Assembly: GCA_018433585.1 (NCBI GenBank)
Contig: JAHDQW010000001.1
Location: 62,001-126,000 of the forward strand
Direction of reading: 5' to 3'
Length of the DNA stretch: 64,000 nt
From: Candidatus Praeruminimicrobium purgamenti
Lineage (GTDB): Bacteria; Elusimicrobiota; Endomicrobiia; Endomicrobiales; Endomicrobiaceae
The notes beneath the pieces were generated by a model. The model made no database searches. It was not told where the DNA came from and saw only the letters and a list, made by a program, of their open reading frames with translations. Shown piece by piece: positions 24,296 through 50,950 of this stretch (positions are counted from its first letter, which is position 1; every line of letters begins with the position of its first letter). Made by a program: the position numbers and the translations under genes.

Positions 24296-24377
24296 GCTGG
24301 GGTGGCGGAACTGGCATACGCGCACGCTTGAGGTGCGTGTCCTTAACCGGATACGGGTTCAACTCCCGTCCCCAGCA
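24296..24377 (+). tRNA. tRNA-Leu (anticodon GAG)
   Basis: 82 bases, class II with a variable arm. The acceptor stem is GCTGGGG/CCCCAGC, the anticodon stem CACGC/GCGTG with loop TTGAGGT giving anticodon GAG, and the T arm ACGGG-TTCAACT-CCCGT. The discriminator is A, and CCA is not encoded. It reads CUC and CUU leucine codons. Confidence 0.95.
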
Positions 24378-24392
24378 TAATAGTGTCGTTTT

Positions 24393-24464
24393 GCGGGCAT
24401 AGCTCAGTGGTAGAGCGTCTCGTTGCCAACGAGAATGTCGTGGGTTCAAGTCCCATTGCCCGCT
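24393..24464 (+). tRNA. tRNA-Gly (anticodon GCC)
   Basis: 72 bases. The acceptor stem is GCGGGCA/TGCCCGC, the D arm AGCTCAGTGGTAGAGC, the anticodon stem TCTCG/CGAGA with loop TTGCCAA giving anticodon GCC. The T arm holds GGTTCAAGTCC. The discriminator is T, usual for glycine, and CCA is not encoded. It lies 15 bases after tRNA-Leu. Confidence 0.96.
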
Positions 24465-27110: not shown

Positions 27111-28415
27111 ATGAGTACAAAATCTTTTGTATTGGATACAAATGTTTTACTGCATGACCCTGATTCTATTTTTTCTTTCAAAGACAACAAAGTAGTAATC
27201 CCGCTTACTGTAATAGAAGAGTTGGATAATTTCAAGAAACTTAATGATGAGAGAGGCAGAAGCGCCCGTTTGATATCGAGAATATTGGACGGATTAAGAG
27301 GAAAAGGCAAACTTTCTCAGGGCGTCGCTCTTAAGAACGGCGGTATTCTTGTTATAGAAATGATGAGACAGGTTGAATTTCCTAAAGAGTTCATAGTTTC
27401 AAAATCAGACCATCAGATTCTTTCTATAGCTTTGTATTTAAAACAGAAAGGCGAAAATGTAATTTTTATCACGAAAGATATAAATCTCAGAATTAAAGCT
27501 GAAATTCTTGAAATAAAAACTCAAGATTATGAAAAGTCAAAAGTAAAAATGGATGAAATATATACAGGATGGAGAGAGTTAAAAATTTCTTCCGAAAAAA
27601 TTGACCAGTTTTATAAAAGCGGTAAAATAGCCGTAAAAGATAATTTTTATCCTAACGAATGCGTATTTCTAAAAGATGAAGCAGGTTCTTCGAAAAGCGC
27701 TCTCGCAAAATACTCTCCTGACATAAAAGCGCTTCAGCCTCTTTTTCATATTAACGCTCAGCCGTGGGGATTAAAGCCTTTGAACATTGAACAAAAATTT
27801 GCTTTGGAATTGCTGCTTTGCAATGAGATAAGTTTAGTTACGCTGATAGGGCTGCCGGGTGCAGGTAAAACTTTGCTTGCTTTGGCTTCAGGGCTTCAAA
27901 AAACAGTAGAAGAAAGGCAATTCAGAAGATTATATATAGCAAGGCCTATAATTCCTATGGGTAAAGATATAGGCTTTTTACCTGGTACAAAAGAAGAAAA
28001 ATTAGTTTCTTGGATGGGCGCTATAAATGACAATTTGGAATTTTTGATGGATAAAGGGCATGAAGATTCAAAAGTTGAAGAAAAAATAGACTATCTTTTT
28101 AGTTCAGGTCAAATTGAAGTCGATTCTTTGACATATATCAGAGGAAGATCTCTGCCTAAGCAGTATATAATCATAGATGATGCGCAGAATCTTACTCCTC
28201 ATGAAGTTAAAACAATCATTTCAAGAGCAGGTTCGGGAACAAAAATAGTCCTTACCGGCGATCCTTACCAAATAGATAATCCTTATTTGGATGCTTCGTC
28301 AAACGGATTAACATATTTAGTCGAAAGGTTTAAAGGTCAGCCTATTTACGGGCATTTAATGTTTTCAAAGAGCGAAAGAAGTATTCTTGCTGGTTTGGCA
28401 TCGGAGCTGTTATAA
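27111..28415 (+). CDS. PIN-PhoH protein (PhoH2/YlaK type)
   Basis: 434-residue fusion of an RNase-type PIN domain with a PhoH ATPase; such proteins are RNA helicase/nucleases in the species studied. The PIN domain (about 1-140) starts SFVLDTNVLLHDP with catalytic aspartate, then VIEELDNFK and a later ITKDINLRIKAE. The PhoH domain (about 225-434) has KPLNIEQKFALELLL, Walker A GLPGAGKTLLAL, IYARP-like IARPIIPMGKDIGFLPG and the Walker B region YIIIDDAQNLTPHEVKTI, with TGDPYQID after it. A GGGGG-type ribosome site precedes the ATG. Confidence 0.94.
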   Translation: MSTKSFVLDTNVLLHDPDSIFSFKDNKVVIPLTVIEELDNFKKLNDERGRSARLISRILDGLRGKGKLSQGVALKNGGILVIEMMRQVEFPKEFIVSKSDHQILSIALYLKQKGENVIFITKDINLRIKAEILEIKTQDYEKSKVKMDEIYTGWRELKISSEKIDQFYKSGKIAVKDNFYPNECVFLKDEAGSSKSALAKYSPDIKALQPLFHINAQPWGLKPLNIEQKFALELLLCNEISLVTLIGLPGAGKTLLALASGLQKTVEERQFRRLYIARPIIPMGKDIGFLPGTKEEKLVSWMGAINDNLEFLMDKGHEDSKVEEKIDYLFSSGQIEVDSLTYIRGRSLPKQYIIIDDAQNLTPHEVKTIISRAGSGTKIVLTGDPYQIDNPYLDASSNGLTYLVERFKGQPIYGHLMFSKSERSILAGLASELL

Positions 28416-28418
28416 CAA

Positions 28419-29294
28419 ATGCAACATGAAGATTTTTTTGTAGATTTGCACATACATACTAGTTATTCTGACGGTGTTTTTACGCCATTTGAAGTAGTTG
28501 AGTATGCTTCTAAAATAGGTCTGTCGGCAATAAGCATAACAGACCATGATACTGTTGACGGGATAGAGGAAGCTTTGGAAGCGGGCAAACAATTTGGTGT
28601 TGAAGTTATTCCCGGAATTGAATTGTCTGCGGAGCTTGGAAACATCACCAAAACAGAAATGCACATTCTTGGGTATTATATTAACTGGCAGTCTCAGTCT
28701 TTTAAAGATGCATTGTCTGTGTTTAAGAAAGTCAGAAAACAGAGAGCAAAAGAAATATTTTCAAAATTAGAGTCTGTAGGAATAAAATTAAATCCTGAAG
28801 GCTTAATTGCGTCTATAGGAGAAAAAATAGTAGGAAGACTTCATTTCGCAAAAGCTTTGCTGGAAGGCAAATATGTTTCATCAATATCGGATGCTTTTCA
28901 GAAATATTTAGGTATAGATAAACCTGCGTATGTTCCAAAACATTATATCTCTCCCGGAGATGCTATAGGCTTAATTTTAAAAGCAGGCGGGATTCCCGTT
29001 TTAGCCCACCCTTATTACGGACATTACAGTAATAAAAATATTTTTAAAGGGCTTATTAATGACGGCCTTATGGGAATTGAGGCATGGCATAACAGACATC
29101 CGCAGCACATTGTAAAAAAATTTTTAAGTATTGCCGAAGAGATGAATTTAATTGCCACAGGCGGTTCTGATTGTCACGGCGCTTACGGCAACGATACGCC
29201 TTTAATGGGCAAGATAAAAGTCCCGTACAGTGTTGTGGAATTGTTGGAAGAGAAGAAAAGGCAATTGGATGAAAAGAATAAAATTCTGTTATAA
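28419..29294 (+). CDS. PHP-domain phosphoesterase (RNase AM/YciV-like)
   Basis: 291 residues of the polymerase-and-histidinol-phosphatase metallophosphoesterase family. Metal-binding motifs are DLHIHTSYSDG (about residue 8), ITDHDTVDG (about 40), IPGIELSAE (about 67), PVLAHPYYGH (about 192) and GGSDCHG (about 250). The insertion between motifs is like that of YciV/TrpH, now known in some species as a 5'-3' exonuclease acting on short RNA or on 3',5'-nucleoside bisphosphates. Location directly after an RNase-type PhoH and before another nuclease-like protein fits nucleic-acid turnover. Confidence 0.88.
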   Translation: MQHEDFFVDLHIHTSYSDGVFTPFEVVEYASKIGLSAISITDHDTVDGIEEALEAGKQFGVEVIPGIELSAELGNITKTEMHILGYYINWQSQSFKDALSVFKKVRKQRAKEIFSKLESVGIKLNPEGLIASIGEKIVGRLHFAKALLEGKYVSSISDAFQKYLGIDKPAYVPKHYISPGDAIGLILKAGGIPVLAHPYYGHYSNKNIFKGLINDGLMGIEAWHNRHPQHIVKKFLSIAEEMNLIATGGSDCHGAYGNDTPLMGKIKVPYSVVELLEEKKRQLDEKNKILL

Positions 29295-29308: not shown

Positions 29309-30766
29309 ATGAAACCTATAAATAAATCGCTTTTTCTTAAATCTCTTGAGTGTCCTGTTTTTGCATGGCATTTTTACAGGAATTTGGTCAGCAAAGATTC
29401 TTCTCTAAGCGATGATTTTTTGATTTTGGAAGCAAAAAATATTCATAATATGGCAAAAATGCTGTTTCCAGACGGCGTTCAGGTATCGGGACGTATGGAA
29501 GACGCGGTAAACCAAACACGCAGACTGCTGTCGGATAAAAATGTAAAAACAATTTTTGAACCGGTTTTTGAATATGAAGGCTTTGTTGCCAAAGCCGATA
29601 TAATCTGCAGATCAGGAGACGGATGGCAGATTATAGAAGTAAAGTCGGGAAACAAATGGAAAAACAAATATATATCCGACATGGCATATTCAGCGTTAAT
29701 AATTTCAAAACAAATTAAATGTATATCAAAAGCGCAGATGATGCTGTTGTCTAAAGATTTTCGTTTGGGAAAACCGTTGGACGAGTTATTTACGACAGTA
29801 GACTGCAGTTTTGATGTTTTCACAAAAGCCGATGAATTTAATAATCTGTTAAATTATTCAAAAGAAATTTTACAGGCAGATAATCCTCAATGCGGGAAAT
29901 TAAAAATGGCTTGTAAAAATTGTTCAATGTTTAAGGAATGTACGGGGAAAAACATTGAATATCATATATTTGATCTTCCAAGATTATCAAAAACTGTTTT
30001 TGACAAGTTGTGCGATTTAGGGATATTTCAGATAAAAGATATTCCTGAAGATGCGGAATTGACTGATATGCAGAAGATTGTCAAAGAATGTGTTATGAAG
30101 GATAAAATTTTTGTAAGTCCCGGTTTAAAAGAAGGACTTGGTAAAATAAAATTTCCAGCCTATTATCTTGATTTTGAGTCTGTTATGACAATATATCCTT
30201 TGTATGACAATATCCCGCCGCATACTCAAATTTTAACGCAGTATTCAATACATAAATGTGATGAGCCCGGCAATGTAACAGGCCATTTTGAATATATTGC
30301 CGATCACATGAAAGACTGCAGAAAAACAATTGCGGAAAAATTAACGGAAGTGCTTGGAACGGATGGAAGTATTATTACGTATTCTTCTTTTGAACATCAA
30401 ATAATTACGAAATTAATAAAACTATGCCCTGATTTAAAAGATCAATTGCAGGCAATATGCGACAGAATAGTAGATTTTGAAGAGATTTTAAGAATGAATT
30501 ATTATGATAAAAATTTTCACGGAAGAACTTCCATAAAAAAGGTCTTGCCGGTTATGATATCTGATATGGATTACACTGAATTGGAAATAGCCGAAGGCGG
30601 AGTCGCTTTGTCTGCGTTTGCATATATGGCTATGGGATTATACGATCAGGATAAAATCGAACAAACCAAAAAAAATCTTTTGGAATATTGTAAATTAGAT
30701 ACTCTTGCTTTGGTAAAAATGCACAAATTTTTGGCGGATGTCGCTGATAATAAGATAAAACATTGA
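29309..30766 (+). CDS. DUF2779 protein with Cas4-like and DEDD-like nuclease features
   Basis: 485 residues, cytoplasmic, no known function. The N-terminal half looks like a PD-(D/E)xK nuclease: AKADIICRSGDGWQIIEVKSG (about residues 93-112) supplies D and ExK. A lone cysteine in LKSLECPVFAW (about 15) and a cysteine cluster CGKLKMACKNCSMFKEC (about 195-211) look like the 4Fe-4S site of Cas4/AddB nucleases. From about residue 285 the DUF2779 segment begins with YYLDFESVM, a DxE motif of DEDD exonucleases, followed by ITYSSFEHQI and a late EYCKLDTLALVKM carrying the last aspartate. It may thus hold two nuclease centres. It ends the phoH operon. Confidence 0.75.
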   Translation: MKPINKSLFLKSLECPVFAWHFYRNLVSKDSSLSDDFLILEAKNIHNMAKMLFPDGVQVSGRMEDAVNQTRRLLSDKNVKTIFEPVFEYEGFVAKADIICRSGDGWQIIEVKSGNKWKNKYISDMAYSALIISKQIKCISKAQMMLLSKDFRLGKPLDELFTTVDCSFDVFTKADEFNNLLNYSKEILQADNPQCGKLKMACKNCSMFKECTGKNIEYHIFDLPRLSKTVFDKLCDLGIFQIKDIPEDAELTDMQKIVKECVMKDKIFVSPGLKEGLGKIKFPAYYLDFESVMTIYPLYDNIPPHTQILTQYSIHKCDEPGNVTGHFEYIADHMKDCRKTIAEKLTEVLGTDGSIITYSSFEHQIITKLIKLCPDLKDQLQAICDRIVDFEEILRMNYYDKNFHGRTSIKKVLPVMISDMDYTELEIAEGGVALSAFAYMAMGLYDQDKIEQTKKNLLEYCKLDTLALVKMHKFLADVADNKIKH

Positions 30767-48403: not shown

Positions 48404-48451
48404 CTAAAAATATAACGTTTAATGCAAAAAAATATATTTGAGAGGTGCAAA

Positions 48452-50950
48452 ATGCAAGCTGTCATCATGGCAGGGGGTTTTGGCACGAGGCTCAGACCTA
48501 TCACAAGCAGTATTCCTAAACCAATGGCTCCTGTAGCCAATAAACCGATGTTAAGCCACATTGTAGAATTGCTTAAGCAATATAATTTTAAAGATCTGAC
48601 GATGATGCTGTATTACCAGCCTGAAATAATTACAAATTATTTCGGAAACGGTTCAAATTTAGGCGTAAATATAAAATATTTAAGACCGGAAGCCGATCTC
48701 GGTACTGCCGGCAGCGTTGGTTTTGCAAAAGATAACATAAACGGAACTTTCCTCGTTATATCAGGAGATGTATTAACTGATTTTGATATATCGAAAGCGA
48801 TAGCGTTTCATAAAGAGAAAAAAGCGATTGCAACAATGGTTTTGACGAGGGTTTCAAATCCTCTGCAGTTCGGAGTAGTCATAACCGACAAAAACGGCAA
48901 AATAGAAAGATTTCTGGAAAAGCCGTCATGGGGCGAAGTTTTTTCAGATACCATAAATACTGGCATATATATACTTGAACCTGAAGTTTTTGATTATATA
49001 CCTGAAAATAAAGACGTTGATTTTTCAAAAGATTTATATCCTAGACTGCTTAAGGAAAATAAAGGCTTATACGGATATGTCGCTGAAGGATACTGGAAAG
49101 ATATAGGCAATCATGATGAGTACAGATTTGCCCACTACGATATTCTTGACGGAAAGGTTAAGATTGAAGTGCCGGGTGAAAAAAAAGAAATAGACGGTAA
49201 AACGGTGATTGTCGGCGAAAATACCGTAATTGAAGAAGGCGTAATTTTTGACAGCAATGTTATTATAGGCAATAATACGATCATAAAGAAAGGGGCAAGA
49301 ATCGGTAAATCTGTAATAGGTTCTGACGTTACTATAGGAGAGAGCGCTCTTGTTTTAGGTTCGGTGCTGTGGAACCGCGTTTCCGTAGGCAGCGAAGCAA
49401 GTTTGAAAGAAGTTGTTATCGGCGCATCCACAAAACTAGGAGAAAGATCTTCCGTCCAGGTAGGAACGATTATTGCAGATGAATGTAATATAGGCTCAGA
49501 TGCTACCATAAGAGCTAATTTGAGAATATGGCCTCATAAAATAGTTGAAAAAGGCGCTATTTTGTCGTCAAGTCTTGTATGGGGAGAAAGATGGAATAAA
49601 GCTCTCTTCAATGCATACGGCAGCATTACAGGTTTGGGAAATATAGAAATAACGCCTGAATTTGCAGCAAAGATAGGTTCAGCTTACGGCGCATATGTAG
49701 GAAGCGGCGCGTATGTCGTTATATCAAGAGACGACCACAGAACTACAAGAATGATAAAAAGAGGTTTGATATCAGGCTTGCTGTCTGCAGGCGTTAATGT
49801 CGGAGATATGTTAAGTTCTTCTATTCCTGTCGCAAGATATGAAATCGGCAATGACGGTGAAATAGGAGGAATTCATATCAGACAGTCTCCGTATGACGCA
49901 AGACTGATAGATATTAAATTTTTTGATAAATTCGGCGGTGATATTTCAATAAATCAGGAAAAATCAATAGAACAATTGTTTTTCAGAGAAGATTTTAAAA
50001 GAGCCAATATGGATGAAGTCGGAGAAATTACTATTCCTCCGAGGGCTTTGGAATATTATAAAACTGGTTATTTGGATATAATAAAGAAAAAACAGACTAT
50101 AAACAAAATAAAGATAGTTATTGATTATGCTCATTCATCGGCTTCAATGGTGTTTCCTGCAATATTGGGAGAATTAGGCGTGGATGTCGTTGCTTTAAAT
50201 GCATATATAGACGCTAAAAAAATAACAAAGACAAAGGAAGAATTTTCAGAATCTTTAAATCAGCTGTCGGATATTGTCACAACTTTGAAAGCCAGCGCAG
50301 GTTTTCTTATAGATAACGGCGCCGAGAAATTATTTTTGGTTGATGAAAAAGGCAAAATAATGGACGATGAAACGGCTATGCTTGTTATGGCATATCTTGT
50401 TATGATAACTTATAAGAAAGGCACTATAGCCGTTCCTGTAACGGTATCGTCAGTTATCGACGAGCTTGCCGAAAAATTTGATTTTAAGGTTAAGAGAACC
50501 GGTACAAGTCCTAGAAATATTATGAATGCGACCAAGGATGAAAATGTTATTTTTGTTGCAGACTGCCGCGGCGGATTTATTTTCCCTGAATTCCAACAGG
50601 CTTTTGACGCAATGTATTCAATAGGAAAACTGATAGAAATGTTAACTGAAAATAATTTGACGATAAGCAGAATAAGAAGAGAGATTCCTTCTTTTGAGGT
50701 TTTTCATACCGCTATTCCGTGCTCATGGGACAAGAAAGGGCAGACAATGAGAAATGCAATAGAAAGTACAAAAGATAAAAGAACCGAGCTTATTGACGGT
50801 GTAAAGATTTTTTTAAATAACGGCTGGGTGTTGCTTCTTCCGGATCCTGACGAAGCTTATTTCCATATTTGGGCGGAAGCAAAAGATAAAACAACCGCAA
50901 AAGGTTTTATAGATATGTATACGGATAAAATTAGACAGTGGCAGAAATAA
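48452..50950 (+). CDS. Mannose-1-phosphate guanylyltransferase-type fusion with degenerate phosphomutase domain
   Basis: 832 residues in three parts. The nucleotidyltransferase (about 1-240) starts QAVIMAGGFGTRLRPITSSI with PLGTAG-like ADLGTAGSV and VISGDVLTDFD. A left-handed beta-helix follows (about 250-370, repeats such as VIIGNNTIIKKGARIGKSVI). From about 390 comes a phosphomannomutase-like domain. There the catalytic-serine loop TASHNP is replaced by HIRQSP and the metal loop DGDADR by DNGAEKL, so mutase activity is doubtful. Such fusions are known from other phyla. The start follows GAGAGGTG; the in-frame ATG at 48422 is less likely. An intact mutase is encoded next. Confidence 0.88.
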   Translation: MQAVIMAGGFGTRLRPITSSIPKPMAPVANKPMLSHIVELLKQYNFKDLTMMLYYQPEIITNYFGNGSNLGVNIKYLRPEADLGTAGSVGFAKDNINGTFLVISGDVLTDFDISKAIAFHKEKKAIATMVLTRVSNPLQFGVVITDKNGKIERFLEKPSWGEVFSDTINTGIYILEPEVFDYIPENKDVDFSKDLYPRLLKENKGLYGYVAEGYWKDIGNHDEYRFAHYDILDGKVKIEVPGEKKEIDGKTVIVGENTVIEEGVIFDSNVIIGNNTIIKKGARIGKSVIGSDVTIGESALVLGSVLWNRVSVGSEASLKEVVIGASTKLGERSSVQVGTIIADECNIGSDATIRANLRIWPHKIVEKGAILSSSLVWGERWNKALFNAYGSITGLGNIEITPEFAAKIGSAYGAYVGSGAYVVISRDDHRTTRMIKRGLISGLLSAGVNVGDMLSSSIPVARYEIGNDGEIGGIHIRQSPYDARLIDIKFFDKFGGDISINQEKSIEQLFFREDFKRANMDEVGEITIPPRALEYYKTGYLDIIKKKQTINKIKIVIDYAHSSASMVFPAILGELGVDVVALNAYIDAKKITKTKEEFSESLNQLSDIVTTLKASAGFLIDNGAEKLFLVDEKGKIMDDETAMLVMAYLVMITYKKGTIAVPVTVSSVIDELAEKFDFKVKRTGTSPRNIMNATKDENVIFVADCRGGFIFPEFQQAFDAMYSIGKLIEMLTENNLTISRIRREIPSFEVFHTAIPCSWDKKGQTMRNAIESTKDKRTELIDGVKIFLNNGWVLLLPDPDEAYFHIWAEAKDKTTAKGFIDMYTDKIRQWQK

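Follow-up and report, generated by a model that had tools for sequence, protein, structure and literature searches.

A DUF2779 protein of Endomicrobiaceae predicted to join a Cas4-like nuclease to a DEDDy exonuclease

The gene at 29309-30766 of the window (the whole 64,000-nucleotide stretch of DNA that was analysed) raises the question of what a DUF2779 protein does in a member of the Endomicrobiaceae (Elusimicrobiota), and whether it serves defence, RNA turnover or general maintenance. The 485-aa open reading frame was confirmed on the plus strand. The reading that we favour, with moderate confidence, is a stand-alone bifunctional nuclease that would process nucleic-acid ends, would be stabilised by an Fe-S cluster and belongs to the core genes of the family.

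29309..30766, + strand: DUF2779 gene, predicted fusion of a Cas4-like nuclease and a DEDDy exonuclease (ORF call, Pfam, AF2 model)

Pfam assigns residues 285-408 to DUF2779 (PF11074; E 1.8e-32, 112.7 bits versus a gathering cut-off of 23.3), which makes the protein a member of that family. The same scan gave a Cas_Cas4 match preceding the DUF2779 segment that scored 14.0 bits, below the cut-off of 22.7, and detected no SF1 helicase domain in the protein. Comparison with the defence systems of PADLOC 2.0.0 returned no own-model match beyond weak Cas4 hits, with E 6.6e-4 on the N-terminal part. Among the NCBIfam models, the UU173 family (NF045869) scored 67.7 bits, below its cut-off of 225, and thus appears to be a relative of the window protein and not its own family. 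The TM0106 RecB-like nuclease model (TIGR03491; E 1.8e-6) scored 27.2 bits against a cut-off of 97.45, so that the protein represents a sister family rather than a member of the TM0106/COG2251 nucleases (RNase_H_2/YprB-type), which have the same domain pairing. The best match among BFVD viral models was a YprB-type protein that aligned over both domains (TM 0.60). When 27 aligned relatives were scanned, all of them matched UU173, 17 matched TIGR03491 (best 3e-11) and five matched the Cas4 model TIGR00372 (best 4e-8). Altogether, the Cas4/RecB-type signals from the N-terminal part are weak but consistent across profile sets. The nearest named relatives came from Endomicrobiaceae and Elusimicrobia MAGs (83% and 73% identity). 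Searched singly against the PDB, the window protein gave chance matches only, and Cas4 surfaced at E 0.26 with a family profile.

The N-terminal part contains the following features.

29309..30148, + strand: Cas4-type PD-(D/E)XK domain and linker, residues 1-280 (structural match)
29351..29353, + strand: C15, first cysteine of the presumed 4Fe-4S site (101 of 104 homologs)
29597..29644, + strand: D97 ... E110-V-K112, putative PD-(D/E)XK catalytic residues (homolog alignment)
29912..29941, + strand: C202-x2-C205-x5-C211, three C-terminal cysteines (104 of 104 homologs)

Modelled separately, the first 280 residues (pLDDT 85.8) were structurally closest to the Cas4 protein 7mi5_A, which matched residues 1-198 (Z 12.2, rmsd 4.1, 164 aligned), and they also resembled Cas4 4ic1_A (Z 11.4, rmsd 3.2, 138 aligned); RecE, MGME1, Exo5, AdnAB, Dna2 and AddAB followed at lower ranks. 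The residues expected of Cas4, a PD-(D/E)XK site with one early and three late cysteines, are all present as C15, D97, E110, K112, C202, C205 and C211. Residues 1-217 would form a nuclease of the Cas4/RecB type with its metal site at D97, E110 and K112, and the four cysteines probably hold a 4Fe-4S cluster that would clamp the fold. The late cysteines are spaced Cx2Cx5C in 57 of the 104 homologs and Cx5Cx5C in 45, and the spacing of the window protein, Cx2Cx5C, also occurs in the type I-C Cas4 8d3l_I according to a profile alignment. The protein thus shares with CRISPR Cas4 the fold, the arrangement of cysteines and this spacing, but differs in being fused to an exonuclease and in lying without cas1 or cas2 alongside. 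Cas1 of the source genome is encoded on contig C7 and the DUF2779 gene on C8, and a role in CRISPR adaptation was dropped for this reason. The nuclease domains of AddB, RecB, AdnAB and Dna2 have the Fe-S or RecB-type nuclease fold in common with the window protein (Z 6-10), whereas the 485-aa protein carries no helicase domain.

The C-terminal part extends beyond the Pfam segment and is made up as follows.

30149..30760, + strand: 3'-5' exonuclease fold (RNase H-like), residues 281-484, exceeding the Pfam DUF2779 segment 285-408 (structural match)
30170..30178, + strand: D288-x-E290, exo I motif (homolog alignment)
30392..30394, + strand: E362, presumed exo II acid (Glu in 104 of 104 homologs)
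30473..30475, + strand: D389, invariant acid (homolog alignment)
30686..30700, + strand: Y460-x3-D464, exo III motif of the DEDDy type (homolog alignment)

An AF2 model of the whole protein, built from 11 input sequences (pLDDT 88), placed both folds. Residues 281-484 resembled the exonuclease domains of B-family DNA polymerases (best Z 15.0, rmsd 2.5, 170 aligned) and E. coli ExoI 4hcc_A (Z 13.9, rmsd 2.9, 155 aligned), and with Z scores of 13-15 and the DxE and YxxxD motifs in place they show the hallmarks of an RNase H-like exonuclease. The YxxxD motif makes it one of the DEDDy type, and the segment is expected to act as a 3'-5' exonuclease through D288, E290, E362, Y460 and D464. We take E362 to be the exo II residue on account of its motif position and of the motifs usual in polymerase exonucleases, not of geometry. 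DEDD exonucleases usually carry Asp at exo II, and the fold acts on both DNA and RNA. In comparison with the B-family proofreading domain and ExoI, the window protein has no polymerase, and its presumed exo II residue is Glu.

The alignment comprised 104 homologs, drawn from Endomicrobiaceae, other members of the phylum, plasmids and viral contigs and sharing 22-100% identity with the window protein. In 99 of them the Cas4-type set (C15, D97, E110, K112, C202, C205, C211) was intact, counting either Lys or Arg at 112 as a match. The exonuclease set (D288, E290, E362, D389, Y460, D464) was intact in 102, and the two remaining sequences break off at a contig end. The motif columns are 95-100% conserved versus 34% of letters shared with the window protein in the mean column, and the motifs are therefore not due to chance. 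The D...ExK motif, the cluster of three to four cysteines and the DxE motif that the preliminary description had read from the sequence were correctly described, and its 'later acidic residues' correspond to E362, D389 and the YxxxD motif. Its central proposal, a Cas4-like nuclease of the Fe-S type joined to a DEDD-type exonuclease, is borne out by domains, motifs and model folds that agree with one another, with the cluster itself predicted from the cysteines. It is very improbable that one or both of the domains are only structural or DNA-binding: two family members are changed at the Cas4 active site (L025, 1279-2733, with E97 and R112; L026, 1276-2736, with K110 and N112), but both catalytic sets are almost completely conserved down to 22-30% identity. 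Since L025 and L026 have retained an intact exonuclease set, the Cas4-like site may be dispensable in some members.

The combination of domains is not new, and in this respect the word 'undescribed' did not hold. Within the RNase H-like superfamily, PF11074 was assigned by Majorek et al. (2014) to the clade of 3'-5' exonucleases as a presumed exonuclease, and its association with DUF83 was noted (PMC3985635). Their family F.17 (DUF2779) is the same family, with the exonuclease domain and an N-terminal DUF83 of the PD-(D/E)XK type, and nothing essential differs. To that description our analysis adds the DEDDy motif, a Glu where the exo II acid is presumed, the gene order in Endomicrobiaceae and the WYL contexts described below.

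The DUF2779 gene is the last of three closely spaced genes in the window.

27111..28415, + strand: PIN-PhoH gene (PhoH2-type), first of the three (ORF call, Pfam, NCBIfam)
28419..29294, + strand: PHP phosphoesterase (closest NCBIfam models nucleoside bisphosphate phosphatase and RNase RNM, both below cut-off)

We consider it most likely that single-stranded ends are the target of both active sites: the Cas4-like site would cut or resect ssDNA, and 3' ends would be digested by the DEDDy site. The nuclease activity, a substrate of ssDNA rather than RNA and the cellular role would follow from the domains and contexts, and the RNA-related operon partners, PIN-PhoH and a PHP protein like RNase RNM, count against the ssDNA reading. 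They also suggest a different enzyme, one that takes part in RNA decay in a single turnover unit with the PIN-PhoH2 protein (helicase/RNase) and the PHP phosphatase. Consistent with this are the tight order of the genes, with gaps of only 3 and 14 bases, its conservation as a contiguous trio in 11 of the 17 further family loci tabulated (two of these from one possibly contaminated genome), and the resemblance of the partners to PhoH2, to nucleoside bisphosphate phosphatase and to RNase RNM. In addition, a transposon insertion in DUF2779 of Mycoplasma bovis, which impaired growth on host cells, came from the same growth screen as a mutant of the nanoRNase NrnA (PMC7373297). This mutant was the only DUF2779 phenotype that we found in the literature, where we found no measured activity or biochemistry for any DUF2779 protein.

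However, DUF2779 does not follow its partners closely. It is present without a phoH match in G003, G006, G008 and G023 and without a php ortholog in G003 and G013, all of them draft genomes in which absence is not certain, and in G027, from the same order, phoH adjoins php with DUF2779 on a different contig. The trio order was not seen outside Endomicrobiaceae, and the family of Cas4-type domains is known chiefly for acting on DNA. On these grounds we regard a role in RNA decay as quite unlikely and retain the end-processing nuclease as the preferred reading. The retention of DUF2779 where phoH or php is lost, together with the separate pair in G027, also speaks against the idea of a fixed nuclease module. 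Of the nuclease operon with PIN-PhoH and PHP that had been suggested, the arrangement typical of co-transcription stands, and the notion of a module does not, the trio having been seen in part of one family only. We infer that phoH-php is the older pair, to which DUF2779 was added within the family without coming to depend on it. The three genes are probably co-transcribed in the window. Terminators were not above chance, and promoter-like matches (22 versus 15.4 expected) were not counted as evidence.

Within Endomicrobiaceae, DUF2779 is a vertically inherited core gene, and in the window it lies among housekeeping genes. It was found in 63 of the 77 sampled genomes, and those lacking it comprise 11 reduced genomes (0.9 Mb or less) and three fragmented drafts. 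In the tree, all 27 sequences from the family group together in a single clade (SH-aLRT 100). Values of dN/dS ranged from 0.05 to 0.11, that for the window/L030 pair being only rough because synonymous changes are near saturation there. In one reduced family genome (G117, C4:70149-70525), the DUF2779 match falls into two pieces in different frames, like a decaying gene. In the window, the ORFs around DUF2779 read as GAPDH, PGK, SecG, IscS, MltG, CinA, HisS and HrcA-GrpE-DnaK. Genes of the PDDEXK_1 (AddB/RecB-type) and RNase_T types occur elsewhere in the source genome, and a simple replacement of those enzymes is thus not indicated. The copy in Endomicrobiaceae would be an inherited housekeeping nuclease for clean-up or repair, sharing a transcript with phoH and php in genomes that retain them.

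Outside Endomicrobiaceae, the distribution of DUF2779 is sporadic and its neighbours are of another kind. A WYL regulator was present in 20 of 40 DUF2779 loci from the phylum outside the family (up to 15.5 kb each) versus 0 of 35 control stretches of 12 kb taken away from the gene, mostly in the same genomes (Fisher 1.8e-7, uncorrected for kinship). The WYL label requires at least seven changes on the DUF2779 tree. In a PADLOC tally, 12 of 130 neighbouring proteins matched WYL models, whereas the 25 families listed for the 130 control proteins included none. On plasmids of Aliarcobacter, Rhodoferax and Diaphorobacter, DUF2779 directly precedes WYL genes, and on plasmids it also lies behind AAA ATPases or PD-(D/E)XK genes. 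No gene qualified as a fixed partner outside the family, since the neighbours vary among WYL, AAA, GmrSD, RmuC, PDDEXK_4, DUF4268 and metabolic genes, and no single two-gene system emerged. In phage records, matches were confined to short C-terminal segments in Helicobacter prophages, and a second query gave none. On a viral-labelled contig (L088:4651-7470), a 940-aa protein carries about 440 aa fused ahead of a complete DUF2779 protein, and this extension had no Pfam match. A recurrent arrangement on the Arcobacteraceae plasmids L090, L100 and L101 runs from DUF2779 through a gene for a large helicase or a protein of unknown kind to a dGTPase (dgt) gene, with SbcC-like genes upstream in two of the three.

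Co-localisation of WYL regulators with phage defence has been described (PMC9122601), and a defence role of the relatives outside the family is plausible; they probably protect against mobile DNA under the control of WYL regulators. By extension, DUF2779 proteins in general could be anti-phage or anti-plasmid effectors, with the Endomicrobiaceae copy still acting as one and merely fixed in the lineage. The WYL associations and the GmrSD, AAA and PDDEXK_4 neighbours favour such effectors. In contrast, none of 15 Endomicrobiaceae loci had a WYL regulator, the surroundings in the window are of the housekeeping type, and presence in most family genomes within one vertical clade differs from the scattered distribution typical of defence genes; even outside the family the neighbours are inconstant and partly ordinary metabolic genes. 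We thus think it unlikely that the Endomicrobiaceae copy is a defence effector and prefer a housekeeping nuclease. The suggestion of a defence module is not upheld for the window, where the gene does not lie in a defence island, and the WYL, GmrSD and AAA contexts support a link to defence only for the relatives outside the family. A broader scenario, which we put forward tentatively as possible but somewhat doubtful, is that DUF2779 forms an unrecognised family of WYL-regulated dual-nuclease defence proteins, spread across phyla by plasmids and islands, of which the Endomicrobiaceae copy was domesticated behind phoH-php as a housekeeping nuclease.

Its contrasting status, an accessory gene linked to WYL outside Endomicrobiaceae and a core gene, single-copy and under purifying selection, within the family, opens the function of DUF2779 to testing, and mutants can be chosen from the conserved catalytic residues. 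If the link to defence is true, a Cas4-exonuclease fusion would join the uncharacterised defence nucleases.

Other features of the window include two adjacent tRNA genes at 24296-24464 on the plus strand, just after secG. An 842-aa protein encoded at 48422-50950 is an apparent fusion of a sugar-phosphate nucleotidyltransferase and a phosphomannomutase-like protein, and a separate phosphomannomutase-like gene follows it.
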